DNA of 60,089 nt, from NCBI RefSeq assembly GCF_028209885.1, contig NZ_JAQLEM010000015.1:1-60089 (forward strand). The letters run 5' to 3'. The position numbers were made by a program, and so were the translations under genes. The stretch comes from Collinsella aerofaciens. Lineage in GTDB: Bacteria > Actinomycetota > Coriobacteriia > Coriobacteriales > Coriobacteriaceae. The first letter of the stretch is position 1. Every line of letters begins with the position of its first letter. The notes beneath the pieces are model-generated. The model made no database searches. It was given only the letters and a program-made list of their open reading frames with translations, and was not told the origin of the DNA. Of this stretch, positions 3,993 through 60,089 are shown in pieces.

Positions 3993-5055
3993 GAGCACCG
4001 CTTTCCTTGACCGTAAGCGAGATCAGGCGGAATGCGATGGTGAGCACCGCCACGCCAATCACGCCGGACAGGATATACATGGCAGCCTGGCCGGCAAAGC
4101 CAAGGCCTTGCTCCTCGGAATAGGCCTGTAGGTAATCGCCCGTGGGCAGCGCATCGGCAAAGGTCGGAGTATCGAGACCGACCGAAGCCTGCAGGCTGTC
4201 GTCACCAGCCTCCTGAACGGCGGTCGCGGCGCCCTCGGCGTCCCACTCACCCCAAGCGTCACCCGTGGCCAGCAGGCCCAGCGGCGTGGCCACGACAAGC
4301 ACGGCAACCAAGATGAGCGTGGGGACCAGCGAGGTCTTCTTGGCAGCAGCGCCCTCGGCAGCAAGCTGGCCATCGACGGCCTCGGGCCCGACGATAATGC
4401 TCGGCGCCGTCTTCTTAATGAAACCGTAGATGGCGGCCGTCGCCACGCCCTCGATCACGCCGGCAACCAACATATGCGGGATCAACATGGCCGGAATAGC
4501 CACGGACAGCGGGAAGGGGCAGTACAGCGGCGCGCCCGAAGCGTTGGTAAAGAGCATCGGCTGAATACCAAACTCGATTGCCGCGCACAGGGCCGCCAGG
4601 CACAGGCCGACCCAACCGCTCACGATGGCAGAAATCGAGGTGCCCCAGCTCTTGTCGTGCAAACGGCTGTTGAGCGCACGGAACACGACAGCAGCGGCAA
4701 ACGGCAGCACGAAGGCCATGTTAAAGCAGTTGGCGCCAAAGGACAGGACGCCGCCGTCGCCAAACAGCAGCGCCTGCAGCGCCAGCGCGACCGAAACCGC
4801 GATGGCAGCGGCCTCGGGACCCAGCAGCAGCGCGATGAGCGCGCCGCCGACGGCGTGGCCTGTGGTGCCGCCAGGCAGCGGCACGTTGAACATCATGAGC
4901 AGGAAGGAGAACGCGGCGCAGATGCCCAGGAACGCCATGTGCTCGCGATCGAGCGTGGCGCGCACCTTTTTGATGCAGTGGATCCAAACGGGCACCATCG
5001 CCACCGCCATAACGGCATCGGTCTGCGGGGACAGATAATTATCTGGAATGTGCAT
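3970..5055 (-). CDS. cbiM: cobalt/nickel ECF transporter S-component, CbiM-CbiN fusion
   Basis: Substrate-specific subunit. The N-terminus MHIPDNYLSP is the CbiM/NikM metal-site signature, in which His2 and the free N-terminus coordinate the ion. About seven hydrophobic segments follow. At 361 aa it is longer than a plain CbiM (about 220-250 aa). The extra C-terminal part has one helix (near residue 215), a Gly/Asp-rich extracytoplasmic stretch and a last helix, the layout of CbiN or the PDGLE domain fused to CbiM. The ribosome-binding site GGAGG is 6 bases before ATG. The NikR-like palindrome upstream argues for nickel as substrate. Confidence 0.88.
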   Translation of the reverse strand: MHIPDNYLSPQTDAVMAVAMVPVWIHCIKKVRATLDREHMAFLGICAAFSFLLMMFNVPLPGGTTGHAVGGALIALLLGPEAAAIAVSVALALQALLFGDGGVLSFGANCFNMAFVLPFAAAVVFRALNSRLHDKSWGTSISAIVSGWVGLCLAALCAAIEFGIQPMLFTNASGAPLYCPFPLSVAIPAMLIPHMLVAGVIEGVATAAIYGFIKKTAPSIIVGPEAVDGQLAAEGAAAKKTSLVPTLILVAVLVVATPLGLLATGDAWGEWDAEGAATAVQEAGDDSLQASVGLDTPTFADALPTGDYLQAYSEEQGLGFAGQAAMYILSGVIGVAVLTIAFRLISLTVKESGAHGNSRAA

Positions 5056-5112
5056 GTACGCCTCCCGGTTATCGGCGCACGGAATTGCAACGCCGCTTGA
5101 ATCACCTTTCCA

Positions 5113-5140
5113 GTGTTACGTAATGTCAGATTCGTAACAC
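5113..5140. promoter_or_regulatory. NikR-like operator upstream of cbiMQO
   Basis: Perfect inverted repeat GTGTTACG (5113-5120) and CGTAACAC (5133-5140) with a 12-base spacer, centred about 70 bp before the cbiM start. Written as GTGTTAC-N14-GTAACAC it matches, from memory, the NikR-type signal proposed for several bacteria and archaea. No nikR gene is in the window. Confidence 0.6.
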
Positions 5141-5156
5141 GCCGCGGGCTATCATA

Positions 5157-5193
5157 GCAAAACGGCGCACTGCCGACAAAGCAGCACGCCGTT
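5157..5193 (-). terminator. rho-independent terminator after pheT
   Basis: Read on the minus strand, AACGGCG pairs with CGCCGTT (5187-5193 with 5161-5167), with an inner TGC/GCA pair, followed by TTTTGCT. It ends the pheST transcript before the cbiM promoter. Confidence 0.65.
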
Positions 5194-5300
5194 ATGTAAT
5201 GCGCGTGTCATATATGCAGGCTCAACGGTGCCTTATACCGAAAACAGCAGTCACGTAAGACTCGGCGGCAGCCGACGCTGGCCTATATCCGGCGCAGGAC

Positions 5301-17749: not shown

Positions 17750-17796
17750 ATACAGAAACAACCCCCCCCCGCATCGGAGTCAGTGCAGGGGGGGGC
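17750..17796 (-). terminator. homopolymer-stem terminator after PTS operon 1
   Basis: On the minus strand a C8 run (17788-17795) faces a G9 run (17762-17770) across an 18-base loop, followed by TTGTTTCTGTATTT. It is unusual in being built from homopolymers. Confidence 0.6.
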
Positions 17797-55538: not shown

Positions 55539-55790
55539 TCGTTCGTCAAAGTTCATTGATGTTTATGGTACCGCACGCCCCCGTGACCAAAAGCCAAAGC
55601 GACATCATGCCAAATGTTGCCCACAACGGTCTTGCTAACGGGTTTTCCCAGCTTATTAATCCGCTCTCCGCTTTTTGATTTGCTGCCTTCCGGCAGCGAT
55701 TTACATCGTCCACACCCCCTGGCGAGCATTTCGAGCTACAAAGCGCCTATAATTGACCATGCTTACGTATTCAATGTCACTTTTTGAGGA

Positions 55791-55799
55791 GGGGGGGGG
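55791..55799 (+). repeat. G9 homopolymer at the ribosome-binding site of the first FHA gene
   Basis: GAGGA (55786-55790) is followed by nine G residues and then TAAAACAA before the ATG at 55808. The run lies within the Shine-Dalgarno/spacer region, where slippage would change the spacing. Confidence 0.8.
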
Positions 55800-55807
55800 T
55801 AAAACAA

Positions 55808-56764
55808 ATGGCCGACACTCCATCTTGTGCACTGTATGCCGGACTCAAGTCACTCGGTCGCATCAACAACGGTAACGCCGCGCAAATTCTCATGGCCGGC
55901 AACGCCCGTTACGGTGGACGCCTCATCTCCGAACGCTTGACGGTCCCATCGTTTATCTCACGCGAAATCGTTCACGCCAAACCCGGTGACCTTCCCGAGC
56001 CGCTGTTTGCGCCCTTTGAACAAAGTGCGCACCAGATACTCAACCTCATCATGCAAAACCGAGGCTCCGACCCCCAATCGCTGAGCAAGGTCGCTAAACG
56101 CTACATGGAGTCGTGTGTCCCAGACATGCAGGATGCCCTTACCAATTGCGGCGTCGACGGCATGCTCTTTAGAAACGGCGTCGAGCGCATCGAAACCGCT
56201 GACGATAGCGACATCAAAGGTCGCCTCTACATCCATCTGGTCTTTTTTATCGTTACCGGCTGCCTTGGCGACCCCGCCCGCGCCATCGAATACACCGAGT
56301 CCTTTGTGTCCGACCAGATGCTCTCGACACTCGGCACGGTCGAGACGACCGTCACCTCGTTTTTCTCGACAACCGCGCGCCCCACGGGAGACATTCGCCT
56401 GGGGCTGCTGCGCGTCGTGGGCAACTCGGCACGACCGCCGCTGCGCCCCCTTACCACGGACCCGGTGGGCAGCATTATCGGGTCGCTGACGGGCGACGAG
56501 AACGCCATCACCGACGTCGATTCCGATGTCTCGCGTCAGCACCTGCGCATTTGGCTCCAAGACGGACGCTGGCTTGCGCAGGGCCTCGGCTCCACCAACG
56601 GATCGTTTTTGATCTCGGGAGTCGACCGCTGCCGACAGGCTATCGAACCGCCCAGACGCGAGCGCCCCGCCAACTTTGCCAACACTCCCGTCGAGATTCA
56701 CAACGGAGACACGCTTTGCTTGGGCGCCACGACGCGTTTTTTGGTCATTCGCATCACAAACTAG
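55808..56764 (+). CDS. FHA domain-containing protein 1
   Basis: 318 aa. The C-terminal third (about 205-318) is a forkhead-associated domain: SIIGSLTGDENAI, SDVSRQHLRIW, GLGSTNGSFLI. The Gly-Arg of the phosphothreonine pocket reads Gly-Ser, while SRQH and STNG are kept. The N-terminal 200 residues match no family I recognise, but share blocks with the second FHA protein: INNGNAAQILMA, FISREIVHAKPGDL, FFIVTGCLGDPARA, STLGTVETT. No membrane segment. The ATG follows a GAGGA-G9 ribosome-binding region. A strong terminator separates it from the kinase gene, so its dosage is independently set. Confidence 0.85.
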   Translation: MADTPSCALYAGLKSLGRINNGNAAQILMAGNARYGGRLISERLTVPSFISREIVHAKPGDLPEPLFAPFEQSAHQILNLIMQNRGSDPQSLSKVAKRYMESCVPDMQDALTNCGVDGMLFRNGVERIETADDSDIKGRLYIHLVFFIVTGCLGDPARAIEYTESFVSDQMLSTLGTVETTVTSFFSTTARPTGDIRLGLLRVVGNSARPPLRPLTTDPVGSIIGSLTGDENAITDVDSDVSRQHLRIWLQDGRWLAQGLGSTNGSFLISGVDRCRQAIEPPRRERPANFANTPVEIHNGDTLCLGATTRFLVIRITN

Positions 56765-56788
56765 CCCGCCCACACATCTTCGACGCAC

Positions 56789-56836
56789 AAGGTGCCGTTA
56801 TTTGCATCAATCCATGCAAATAACGGCACCTTTTCA
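56789..56836 (+). terminator. terminator between FHA gene 1 and the kinase gene
   Basis: 18-bp perfect stem AAGGTGCCGTTATTTGCA / TGCAAATAACGGCACCTT with an 8-base loop, followed by TTCAATTAA. Confidence 0.88.
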
Positions 56837-56906
56837 ATTAAGGCAACGGTTGCGCTACCTTTTCACTAACATTATTGCTATGCATTTTTCTCGAAAGGAT
56901 CGCCCC

Positions 56907-58916
56907 GTGACGTACGATACGGACATGGATATCATCGCGTTGTCCCCCTTTGAACCAAACGCCATGTTTGCGACCACCGAAGACTCCGATACCATTCGCC
57001 GCTTTACCACCCTGTTGGATTGCGGGGCAGTCGGCGGCGGCTCCCACCATCTTCGCAAGGTCGCCAACACCGAGGGCGAGACCTTTGCGCTCAAGACGCT
57101 GTGGCCCCTCAGCGGCTGTGATGAAAACGGCTCCGTTGTCAGCCCCTCGGGCATCAAGACGCTCACCGAGGAGTATCGCAATCTTGCAGTCGTCTCACTG
57201 TTGGGCGGCTTTCCCAAAACCTATGGCTACGGTTATGCCGGCAACACACCGGTCATCCTTATGGAATGGATTGAAGGCCTGCCCCTTCGCGATGCCGCGG
57301 CAGAGCTAACCGACCCCGCCGAGGGCGGCCGCATTCCCGCAAACACCGTCGCCGCAATCGGAAAACGCCTGGGAGAGATCCTCCTGAGTACCCAAAAGCT
57401 CGATGCACCTTTTGTGCACCGTGATATCTCCTTGCGCAACATCATTATTCGAACGACGCGCCGACCCCTTGCCCAGCAGATTGCACACTGTAGTTTTGAC
57501 CTTTGCCTGGTCGATCTGGGCAGCTCGAGCATCAAGCGCTCGGACCCCTCGTTTACCATGTCCACCGGCATCTGGCGCAACGGCACCCCCGAGTTCGCCC
57601 CGCCTGAGATGCTCTCCAACGACATCCCCGAGCTGGCGCCGCTGCGCACGTCGCCCAGCATCGATACATACGAGCTCTGCAGCGTGCTCTACACGCTCTA
57701 TGCCGGCCACACGCCATATCGTCTAAACGAGCATATGGACCAGTCGCCCTACCTGTACAAGATCGAGCACGAGCCCGAGCTGCTCGAGGCGCGCTTACCC
57801 GGCGACCAAAAGCTTGTCGATGTCATCATGAGTGGCATCCATAACGAGCAGTCCCAGCGCGCGCCGCTGTCTACGATTGTCGGCAAGCTCGATGTCTGGA
57901 TTAAAGACATCGATTTTGAGCCGCGCACGCCGCTGCCCGCACCTGTCGACTTTAGCCAGCAACCAAAGGCTTTCAGCTCCGACAAGGCTCAGACGCGCCA
58001 TCCGATCATCTCGCGTCGCACTGCGCTCACGCTCGGCGGTGTCTGTGTTGCCGGCATCGCAGCTTCCGCCATTGCCACGGGGTGCTGGGGGCTTATCGAC
58101 CTGGCGCACGGCATCAAGCCGTCACTCGACGATTACACCTGGGAAGAACTCGCCCTAATCTCCCGCAAAATCCAAGAGACATCTTCCAACAAAAAGGCGC
58201 TCGCGATTGCCGAAACCTACCACCTGGTAAACAGCAAGCAGTCGCTCGAAAACGAGAACACCAAGACCGTCAGGCTTTCCGATGGGACCAAGGCACAAGT
58301 CCAGATCGTGGGCTTTAAGGCAGACACGCTCACCGATGACGGCCTCCCCGCGGGCATCACCTTTATGTTCCGCACCCCCATCGCCATGCGCGCCGTAAAT
58401 GACAGCGCCGCTACGGGCGGTTGGGAGCAATCGTCGCTTCGCGAATGGTTGGCGGACAAGGGCATGGCTACGCTGCCCGACGATCTCCGTAATCAGATCC
58501 GCCCGGTGCGAAAGCTTACCAACAACACCGGCGCCACTAAAGACGTCTCCAGCATCACCGCCACCGATGACAAGCTGTGGCTGCCGTCCATGAGCGAGCT
58601 GTGCGGCTACCAAGCGCCCGAAACGTTCGCAGAAGGCTGCGAGTACCTTTCTGACCTCTACAGCGGAGAAGGCGAGCAGTACCAGCTCTATCGCGAGCAG
58701 AGTGTGAGCGGTCTGACCACCAATGATGCCATGGTCCGCACCGTCGCCGGCCAAAAGATCTGCTACTGGGAGCGCACCCCCAGCGCCGACTGCAGCGAAG
58801 GCGCCGACTCGACGTACTTTAACCGCGTTGGAAAAGACGGCGACGTGTTTAGCTGGGCAACGCCCGGAAACAAACCGGACCTAATGACCTATGCCCTGCC
58901 CGGCTTTTGCATCTAA
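56907..58916 (+). CDS. membrane Ser/Thr protein kinase with DUF6273 extracytoplasmic domain
   Basis: 669 aa from the GTG at 56907 (GAAAGGA at good spacing); an ATG at 56880 and earlier open frame lack one. Hanks-type kinase domain at about 25-330: Lys62 in TFALKTLW, HRDISLRN near 171-178, LVDLGSSS (DLG for DFG) and the activation segment end GTPEFAPPEM. A linker precedes one membrane helix (about 375-395, after SRRTALTLGG). The outer part (about 440-669) is a DUF6273 domain: GWEQSSLREWLADKG, LWLPSMSELCGY and SWATPG. The topology suggests kinase inside, sensor outside. The kinase motifs look intact. It lies between two FHA genes. Confidence 0.87.
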   Translation: MTYDTDMDIIALSPFEPNAMFATTEDSDTIRRFTTLLDCGAVGGGSHHLRKVANTEGETFALKTLWPLSGCDENGSVVSPSGIKTLTEEYRNLAVVSLLGGFPKTYGYGYAGNTPVILMEWIEGLPLRDAAAELTDPAEGGRIPANTVAAIGKRLGEILLSTQKLDAPFVHRDISLRNIIIRTTRRPLAQQIAHCSFDLCLVDLGSSSIKRSDPSFTMSTGIWRNGTPEFAPPEMLSNDIPELAPLRTSPSIDTYELCSVLYTLYAGHTPYRLNEHMDQSPYLYKIEHEPELLEARLPGDQKLVDVIMSGIHNEQSQRAPLSTIVGKLDVWIKDIDFEPRTPLPAPVDFSQQPKAFSSDKAQTRHPIISRRTALTLGGVCVAGIAASAIATGCWGLIDLAHGIKPSLDDYTWEELALISRKIQETSSNKKALAIAETYHLVNSKQSLENENTKTVRLSDGTKAQVQIVGFKADTLTDDGLPAGITFMFRTPIAMRAVNDSAATGGWEQSSLREWLADKGMATLPDDLRNQIRPVRKLTNNTGATKDVSSITATDDKLWLPSMSELCGYQAPETFAEGCEYLSDLYSGEGEQYQLYREQSVSGLTTNDAMVRTVAGQKICYWERTPSADCSEGADSTYFNRVGKDGDVFSWATPGNKPDLMTYALPGFCI

Positions 58917-58951
58917 CACCTTCCCCGGATACCAGAAAGGAGCCTCGCATC

Positions 58952-59941
58952 ATGCGTGCGGAAACACCTTCCGAGGTGCTCTTTGATTTCCTTAAGTGCG
59001 ACCTGCAGATCAATAATCGCGAAGCGGCGCGTATCTTGATTTCGGACAAGCCGATGGGCTCCAAACCGGCTCCAAGGTTTCGCATTACCGAAAAGACGTT
59101 TCTGTCGCGACGCGTGGTGCACGTCGTTCCGGGTACCGACAAGATTGACCCTGAGATGTTTACCGATTTTTCGCAGAGCGTCCAGAACTTGGCTGCAGCT
59201 GTAAAAATCGGCAGCGCCAGCAGTCCAGCGGCCGTCAACGCTCGCCAGCAAGCCATTACGGCGCATGCCCTCGAGCGCATGGCAACGTCGCTCGAACACT
59301 GGGGGCTCGATGGTTCCATCCTGCGCAATATCTTTGACCGTATCGCCTTCACGCCTGGCCTCAAGCAAAGCGACCGGCGCCTTTTGGAGCTCCTTGCGCT
59401 AACGGTCTGCGGATGCCTGGCCGATCCAAATGCCGCCGCCTCCGAGGTCAAAGACTTTGCCATAACGCAGCTAGCCCAGACATTTGGCACGCTCGAGACC
59501 ACCGAGATCGTCCAGGCGCAGGATACCAACCACAAGGTCAACGAGCCTCCTGCAAAACTGGGGCTGCTCAGGCTTGCGAAAGACGGCTCGGCCTTGCCGC
59601 CGATCTATCCCTTGAGCCTCGATCCCGAGGGCACGGTTTTAGGCTCGTTCGCACACGACCGAAACAGCATCACCAACGTGGGTCCCGATGTATCCCACCG
59701 GCACCTGGGCGTGGCGTTTTCTAACGGCACATGGCTCGCAAGCGGCCTTCACTCCACCAATGGAACGGTGCTGGTGACACGCAGCGGCGCGACCACCGTT
59801 ATCGAAAAGCCACGCTCGCTGCGCTCCGCCGGTGACGAGGACAAGCAGATTCCTATCCACGACGGCGACCTGCTCAAGCTGGGCTCCTCGACCGATTTTT
59901 TGGTGCTGAAGATCTCCTCGAACGTACGAGCATTGGCCTAG
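58952..59941 (+). CDS. FHA domain-containing protein 2
   Basis: 329 aa from the ATG at 58952 (GAAAGGAG upstream), 35 bases after the kinase gene and probably co-transcribed. FHA domain at about 210-329: TVLGSFAHDRNSI, GPDVSHRHLGVAF, GLHSTNGTVLV. Again the Gly-Arg is Gly-Ser, and the SRxH motif is SHRH. The N-terminal half shares INNREAARILI, FLSRRVVHVVPG, TVCGCLADPNAAA and TFGTLETTE with FHA protein 1. The two are therefore paralogues of the same unknown-domain plus FHA architecture and are likely readers or substrates of the kinase. Confidence 0.85.
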   Translation: MRAETPSEVLFDFLKCDLQINNREAARILISDKPMGSKPAPRFRITEKTFLSRRVVHVVPGTDKIDPEMFTDFSQSVQNLAAAVKIGSASSPAAVNARQQAITAHALERMATSLEHWGLDGSILRNIFDRIAFTPGLKQSDRRLLELLALTVCGCLADPNAAASEVKDFAITQLAQTFGTLETTEIVQAQDTNHKVNEPPAKLGLLRLAKDGSALPPIYPLSLDPEGTVLGSFAHDRNSITNVGPDVSHRHLGVAFSNGTWLASGLHSTNGTVLVTRSGATTVIEKPRSLRSAGDEDKQIPIHDGDLLKLGSSTDFLVLKISSNVRALA

Positions 59942-59970
59942 GGCCGAGCTCGCCCAATAAGAATCAACGC

Positions 59971-60009
59971 AAAGGGGCGCCGCTGCACACATCGCAGCGG
60001 CGCCCCTTT
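59971..60009 (+). terminator. terminator after the FHA-kinase-FHA locus
   Basis: 15-bp stem AAAGGGGCGCCGCTG / CAGCGGCGCCCCTTT with a 9-base loop, ending in TTTATAT. The last 80 bases of the window hold nothing recognisable. Confidence 0.85.
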
Positions 60010-60089
60010 ATATGGCGTGGACATCTAAAAACGTATGCAGAAGTCGAAAACCTCAACAAGATAACTAAAACATAAAAGCCGCGTGGGGG

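Follow-up and report, generated by a model that had tools for sequence, protein, structure and literature searches.

The window analysed here is a 60,089-nucleotide stretch of Collinsella aerofaciens DNA (contig NZ_JAQLEM010000015.1 of assembly GCF_028209885.1), and near its end lie three forward-strand genes that encode a Hanks-type kinase and, on either side of it, two FHA proteins, which we call FHA-A and FHA-B (Table 1). An earlier note, made from the DNA sequence alone, had described two FHA proteins with a common N-terminal region flanking a kinase that carries a membrane helix and an outer DUF6273 domain, and this description is borne out. FHA-A and FHA-B were aligned over 322 columns, nearly their full length, at 35% identity (E = 3e-57); therefore, the shared N-terminal region is real. 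The Pfam FHA model scored 31.4 bits on FHA-A, above its cut-off of 20.7, and 18.8 bits on FHA-B, just under it. In the kinase, only Pkinase (32.5 bits, cut-off 31.7) and DUF6273 (38.9 bits, cut-off 23.5) exceeded their Pfam cut-offs, so that no PASTA domain was seen. One membrane helix was predicted, its hydrophobic stretch following directly on Ser-Arg-Arg, and the DUF6273 domain would lie outside. We rate the system as belonging to the known kinase-plus-FHA kind of signalling, with two testable oddities. The first is an N-terminal domain (N-dom) that lacks any recognised relative, with one candidate phosphosite behind it; the second is a membrane anchor inside the kinase that resembles a signal for twin-arginine translocation (Tat).

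Table 1. Features of the kinase-FHA locus, in coordinates of the window.
Feature	Position	Strand	Remarks
Run of nine G, FHA-A leader/ribosome-binding region	55791-55799	+
FHA-A gene	55808-56764	+	ATG start, 318 aa
N-dom of FHA-A	55808-56335	+	Residues 1-176, largely helical; family and fold searches gave no recognised match
Thr177 codon of FHA-A	56336-56338	+	Near-invariant linker Thr (80/83 clusters), proposed phosphoacceptor
FHA domain of FHA-A	56390-56761	+	Residues 195-318
19-pair hairpin, terminator/attenuator-like	56789-56832	+	In the FHA-A/kinase gap; short T run at its end
Hanks-type kinase gene	56907-58916	+	GTG start, AAAGGA just 5' of the start, 669 aa
Kinase domain	56994-57911	+	Approximately residues 30-335; carries the catalytic Lys and the motifs HRD, DLG and PPE (APE-like)
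Tat-signal-like membrane anchor	58011-58100	+	Ser-Arg-Arg (residues 369-371) and Gly/Ala-rich hydrophobic stretch
DUF6273 domain (PF19789)	58389-58799	+	Kinase residues 495-631 (Pfam), proposed outside
FHA-B gene	58952-59941	+	329 aa
Thr180 codon of FHA-B	59489-59491	+	Counterpart of FHA-A Thr177
18-pair terminator-like hairpin 3' of FHA-B	59970-60010	.	Placed on the minus strand by the terminator scan

The N-terminal domain and its linker threonine

The earlier note had put the shared, unrecognised region at about 200 residues. The region is indeed shared and conserved, and its extent proved to be a domain of about 176 residues followed by a disordered linker of about 20. No known family was matched by the domain: no Pfam family scored above its cut-off (the best below it was DUF3926, with 13.3 against 26.4 bits), no NCBIfam family was matched, and no PDB chain gave an E value better than 0.15. 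An AF2 model of residues 1 to 184 of FHA-A was obtained with a pLDDT of 92.1 and a pTM of 0.88; it begins with helices at residues 5 to 17, 21 to 28 and 47 to 55, and its last helix spans residues 156 to 176. When the N-dom model was compared with other structures, the best E values were 1.6 in the PDB and 0.27 in a viral model library, neither of them significant. The closer fold comparison covered mainly residues 87 to 177, and the first 86 residues were barely tested; therefore, a new fold is only a suggestion drawn from the model. The FHA domain of FHA-A is ordinary by fold, as seen in the structure search. The two proteins scored 21.2 and 15.1 bits with the FhaB/FipA model (NF049868), for which the NCBIfam cut-off is 125 bits.

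N-dom was found in 118 reading frames, and an FHA signature stands behind it in 102 of them. As judged from the printed tails of the other 16, five are broken or cut, one (L191) is interrupted within its FHA part by the contig end, and the remaining ten are FHA-like with altered motifs, so that no intact stand-alone N-dom was seen among the 118. In genome G003 (C1:1074855-1075786, within L078), the kinase-adjacent FHA gene falls apart into a frame of 199 codons and one of 135 and therefore looks broken. A profile of N-dom alone matched 112 of 395 genomes of the order, in 32 of its 123 genera; the order is that of GTDB, which may be wider than the NCBI Coriobacteriales, where NCBI places Collinsella. 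In a sample of the phylum, 13 of 396 genomes were matched, 12 of them inside the order, and the single match outside was marginal (E = 8.8e-4 over 46 model positions). When the class was searched with the profile of the whole protein, long matches lay in the same order, and the matches listed from outside it reached the FHA part only. Overall, in the genomes searched, the N-dom family does not extend beyond a single order, taken here as Coriobacteriales in the broad sense; these gut bacteria, Collinsella and its relatives, thus have their own family of kinase-adaptor signalling. FHA-A itself was found at 96% identity on a contig of Collinsella sp. WCA1-178-WT-3, and the source names attached to its homologues are Collinsella.

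Conservation was counted over 83 clusters (70% identity) drawn from 325 family sequences, with P0126 and P0154 left out. Position 177 is Thr in 80 of the 83 clusters, the three exceptions being a Ser, a Gly in a garbled-looking sequence and a gap where a sequence is truncated; conservation of the other columns between 165 and 197 is 61% or less. In the model of full-length FHA-A, residues 171 to 194 fall below a pLDDT of 50. The segment reads GTVETTVTSFF, and its GTVETT is comparable with the published GarA peptide SDEVTVETTSVFRADFL, which is centred on the phosphorylatable ETTS motif; in GarA, the FHA domain is described as the kinase docking site (PMC8546545 and PMC12321487). Several points speak against a GarA-like switch at this position. 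In the alignment, the invariant Thr falls on the initial T of TVETT rather than on the pair that is phosphorylated, and the E and T behind it are kept in only 38 and 40 of the 83 clusters; therefore, the likeness to GarA is a lead and not a test. Thr177 also stands directly after the last helix and could be structural. Moreover, canonical phosphothreonine-binding FHA domains carry Gly-Arg, Ser-x-x-His and Asn-Gly motifs, and the arginine of Gly-Arg is important. In the present family, Ser242, His245 and Asn264 are kept (82, 82 and 79 of 83 clusters), but the arginine is replaced at position 226, by Ala in 33 clusters and by Ser in 25. Judged from these residues, phosphothreonine binding may therefore be absent or altered, and the phosphopeptide reader of the earlier note retains its FHA fold and its Ser, His and Asn but is unproven in its function.

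Kinases paired with the N-dom genes

To describe the genomic context, 116 distinct N-dom genes were examined; these come from chosen stretches of 98 genomes and from the window itself. Several Collinsella genomes whose loci are nearly identical were passed over, so that the 112 genomes with N-dom are not all represented, and genes in the relatives' stretches were called by a simple script. Of the 116 genes, 91 have a kinase domain no more than 2.6 kb away, on the same strand in 84 cases and on the opposite strand in 7. Homologues of the FHA genes are thus mostly accompanied by a kinase, contrary to what would have spoken against the kinase-FHA system of the earlier note. Catalytic Lys, HRD Asp, Asn, DFG Asp and APE Glu are present in all 74 FHA-kinase pairs, the window kinase reading DLG for DFG, suggesting that the paired kinases are catalytically competent. 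Two of the 91 neighbour kinases, one on the same strand and one on the opposite strand, are of a different, PknB-like kind. These PknB-like kinases (L224, 1493-2731, minus strand; L232, 1893-3158, minus strand) adjoin the N-dom FHA genes and have a C-terminal FHA domain of their own.

Two kinase architectures recur. Class I (42 kinases) usually has four C-terminal helices, and class II (32 distinct kinases, the window kinase among them) has one helix and an outer domain, which was DUF6273 or WG repeats in ten of ten chosen examples. These numbers omit 16 kinase rows, one of them a duplicate, that had no usable C-terminus or an unclear helix count, and about seven of these appear soluble. The soluble versions are paired kinases that apparently end without a membrane helix (L159, L160, L177, L180, L181, L182 and L183); the L183 protein stops immediately behind its kinase domain and could be truncated. 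Several class I kinases (e.g., in L061, L079, L087, L091, L165 and L172) lie downstream of a bitopic protein of about 270 to 380 residues, with overlapping stop and start. Two of these proteins (L079, 7416-8414; L087, 10725-11780) matched no Pfam family (E up to 0.01), and they could be a third component. Class I loci of Collinsella are near genes that we take, by eye and without a model, to be recR and dnaX.

In a tree built from 110 FHA proteins, no more than two changes are needed to explain the labels class I (44) and class II (33). The divergence of the FHA proteins follows that of their kinases, with r = 0.87 over the 74 pairs, 0.88 over the 42 of class I and 0.76 over the 32 of class II, and none of 2000 permutations gave a value as high. 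For the tree and the correlation, L089 and L090 were set to class I and L115 and L075 to class II by hand, and two kinases were counted twice, having two FHA proteins each. A dedicated pairing is qualified by three observations: the correlation of 0.87 includes a share from species ancestry; 25 of the 116 genes have no nearby kinase, six of these being within 1 kb of a contig end; and some N-dom genes stand in other contexts. Thus, in genus g35 of family f2 they lie beside STAS, HATPase_c_2 and SpoIIE phosphatase genes, and in genus g75 beside FHA, VWA and PP2C genes. The loci L185, L187 and L189 have STAS, HATPase_c_2 (RsbW-like) and SpoIIE-type phosphatase neighbours, recognised by Pfam in three L185 genes and one L189 gene and by sequence likeness in the rest, and suggest a link to partner-switching signalling. 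In L238 (4257-10001), genes for a membrane FHA protein, a VWA protein and a PP2C phosphatase are lined up with the N-dom FHA gene. Beside the N-dom FHA gene of L162 lies a membrane FHA protein, the sole neighbour checked there. By their gene content, these non-kinase contexts also speak of phospho-signalling. In L221, a short DUF6273 frame (4663-5283) adjoins the N-dom FHA gene and is possibly the remnant of a class II kinase.

Two FHA genes flanking one kinase were found only in the window and in one relative, G021, among the loci examined, the other kinase loci usually having one FHA gene per kinase; the arrangement is not typical of the family. FHA-A and FHA-B fall into different sub-branches of the class II side of the tree, with moderate support (SH-aLRT 90 and 83, both unstarred). 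Therefore, a simple, recent tandem duplication is not favoured, and the tree suggests that the two FHA genes came together by assembly and not by duplication. The two-output sensor circuit that had been suggested for the locus is accordingly weakened and would not hold for the family in general. The earlier note had also remarked on the missing PP2C partner. One phmmer query found no useful PP2C match in the window (best E 0.78), as had been stated, but PP2C is encoded in 41 of 43 genomes of the genus, in single copy in 37 of the 41; therefore, its absence from the window does not set the system apart.

The best NCBIfam match of the window kinase was the kinase domain of the LanL class IV lanthionine synthetase, with 39.4 bits against a cut-off of 650 and over profile positions 238 to 454 of 851. 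The anti-phage kinase MADS6 scored 15.8 bits, its cut-off being 460, and the anti-phage kinase PD-T4-6 of PADLOC, a library without cut-offs, gave a best E of 3.9e-11, the match lying in the kinase domain. We also considered a metagenome protein, P0154, in which a truncated kinase is fused in frame with an N-dom FHA protein, as proof of interaction. By our reading, its junction falls at a short stretch that is alike in both genes, and its single cluster has a single member; therefore, it is probably a deletion or an assembly chimera.

The start of the locus had been placed at 55784, an in-frame TTG upstream of the FHA-A ATG at 55808. A gap of 142 bases separates the FHA-A stop from the kinase start, and 35 nt separate the kinase from FHA-B. 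The hairpin in the first gap was missed by a simple terminator scan; the RNA fold of 56764-56850 reaches -32.8 kcal/mol (z = -5.87), and the hairpin is conserved in the nearest relative, L247. Given this hairpin and the two gaps, FHA-A is probably transcribed alone with some read-through, and the kinase and FHA-B as a pair. The run of G in the FHA-A leader is a possible slippage site affecting FHA-A translation, and it counts nine G in the window and ten in L247. Phase variation through this run was rejected, the comparison involving two genomes only and two such runs per window being reached by 10 of 100 shuffles; the second run of nine G is at 17762-17770 on the minus strand.

A Tat-like anchor in the class II kinases

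Of the 32 distinct class II kinases, 29, including that of the window, have the motif [ST]RR immediately in front of the membrane helix; in class I, this holds for 2 of 42 kinases. When kinases more than 70% identical were counted once, the figures were 22 of 25 and 2 of 34. Among 97 other proteins of the same stretches with a single inner helix, four have the motif; three of them proved to be class II kinases, or fragments of such kinases, that the filter had missed. In relatives of the window kinase, SRR is kept in all 120 of the matches listed (the best 120 of 354, all 88% or more identical). The arginine pair is followed in class II by an uncharged run of 19 to 33 residues, and the mean Gly content of the anchor is roughly doubled, 0.193 versus 0.088 in class I. 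These anchors resemble the Tat consensus S-R-R-x-F-L-K, as given in PMC7317946. They are also similar to the N-terminal Tat-type lipoprotein signals encoded in these loci, one of which reads SRRRAL (L186). Over ten anchor fragments, TIGR01409 scored above its cut-off in one (L085) and below it in three, and PF10518 scored below its cut-off in one of ten longer fragments.

Other results tell against a Tat signal. Hydrophobicity of the anchor helix does not differ significantly between the classes (p 0.11); the window motif, SRRTAL, has Ala where Tat signals favour Phe; and none of the Tat model families matched the window anchor fragment. TatC was considered as support through its co-occurrence, but it is nearly universal, being present in 42 of 43 genomes of the genus, and therefore does not discriminate. 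Overall, by its sequence the anchor of the window branch looks like an export-type signal that is not normally found inside a kinase. Polytopic Rieske-type proteins are known to have internal Tat signals (PMC5449189), and our literature searches, which covered open-licence papers, found no paper on a kinase with an internal Tat signal.

Proposed switch, rival explanations and known systems

We propose that the locus represents a family in which a Ser/Thr kinase is paired with an adaptor in which a short disordered linker joins the helical N-dom to an FHA domain, with a Tat-like anchored sensor and a switch at the linker threonine, a reading that we consider evenly poised between right and wrong. 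In the window branch, the kinase domain would lie in the cytoplasm, the Tat-like signal anchor would span the membrane, and the folded DUF6273 domain (WG repeats in sister loci) would sense something outside. A signal would activate the kinase, which would bind its neighbour FHA protein and phosphorylate Thr177 of FHA-A or Thr180 of FHA-B. The phosphorylated linker could then engage the FHA domain of the same or of a partner molecule and so alter what N-dom can bind, in analogy to phosphorylation of the ETTS segment in GarA/OdhI, and a PP2C encoded elsewhere would reset the system. What the analysis shows is the pairing of the genes, their conservation, the active-site residues of the kinases, the domain make-up and the motif counts; from membrane topology and Tat use to the N-dom output, every functional step here is one that we infer. 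The wider claim is a whole family of Tat-built transmembrane Ser/Thr kinases, in which an internal twin-arginine anchor exports a folded, swappable sensor (DUF6273 or WG) and a dedicated new-fold adaptor carries an invariant linker Thr switch; this we hold to be possible but doubtful. If the anchor works as proposed, Tat would install the receptor half of protein kinases, a use not found in the literature searched.

The FHA protein might work in other ways. It could be a phospho-independent scaffold in a constitutive complex, with Thr177 merely capping the last helix and no switch at all, which would suit the missing Gly-Arg arginine and the place of Thr177 right behind helix 156 to 176. Capping would tolerate Ser, however, and Ser occurs at position 177 in only one of 83 clusters; Ser242, His245 and Asn264 are also near-invariant, and we regard a pure scaffold as unlikely. 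Less likely still is an EmbR-PknH-like system in which N-dom is a DNA-binding domain and the FHA protein regulates transcription, its activity being set by the neighbouring membrane kinase. The logic of kinase plus FHA protein is the same, EmbR stands at ranks 4, 6 and 8 of the Foldseek matches of the full FHA model, and the first three helices of N-dom can be read as a divergent helix-turn-helix. A relation to EmbR was nevertheless not borne out by the searches: EmbR aligned over 288 to 289 columns of the full model, but a closer look confined the match to the FHA part, and N-dom alone gave nothing significant.

For the kinase, a rival to Tat is that Arg-Arg only sets an N-in/C-out topology and that insertion is by ordinary Sec. 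Arg-Arg fits the positive-inside rule, and both the lack of a Tat model match for the window anchor and the lack of a significant difference in hydrophobicity between the two classes agree with it. But Sec insertion does not account for the conserved Ser/Thr before the arginines, for the near absence of the motif from class I and other single-helix proteins, for the higher Gly content of class II or for the look-alike Tat-type lipoprotein signals of the same loci, and we lean against it while taking it seriously. That the locus is an ordinary PknB/FhaA-type cell-wall kinase locus, merely diverged, appears very improbable. An actinobacterial kinase does adjoin FHA genes here, and the FHA domain is ordinary by fold; yet the window kinase has no PASTA domain by Pfam, N-dom is absent from the standard families of Pfam and NCBIfam, and two Collinsella loci (L087 and L092) have a separate kinase/FHA set a few kb from the class I N-dom locus. 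Our preferred reading remains the N-dom adaptor with its paired kinase.

Literature matches for FHA-domain work on Collinsella, Coriobacteriia and Eggerthella concerned only Bifidobacterium or Bifidobacteriales, and none of the DUF6273 papers was on kinases by title. GarA has no N-dom and keeps the arginine of Gly-Arg, in both of which it differs from the N-dom FHA proteins. GarA and OdhI have ETTS before a lone FHA domain, whereas FHA-A has ETTV and a 176-residue N-dom ahead of it. The systems are alike in that GarA/OdhI of mycobacteria and corynebacteria (PMC8546545 and PMC12321487) have a Thr-rich phosphorylation segment before an FHA domain that docks the kinase, and the GTVETT of the FHA-A linker is similar to TVETT of GarA. 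In PknH-EmbR, a kinase likewise phosphorylates a regulator that bears an FHA domain (PMC6213207), but EmbR is an OmpR-like transcriptional regulator, to which N-dom shows no detected relation. PknQ and MupFHA of an M. ulcerans plasmid are a kinase and an FHA protein of one locus and are reported to associate (PMC4238996); the passages considered mention neither N-dom nor DUF6273, which sets the pair apart by description and not by sequence.

Sec-Tat dual-targeted proteins, such as the actinobacterial Rieske proteins, are alike in having an internal Tat signal that anchors a protein with an exported C-terminal domain (PMC5449189 and PMC7317946). They differ in having membrane helices before the Tat motif, where the class II kinases have a soluble kinase domain, and the word kinase is absent from the main text of PMC5449189. 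The PknB/PstP cell-wall locus is marked by PASTA repeats and a PP2C neighbour, neither of which was found in the window locus. Overall, none of the kinase-FHA systems compared has this architecture, in support of the undescribed kinase-FHA signalling pair that the earlier note had supposed.

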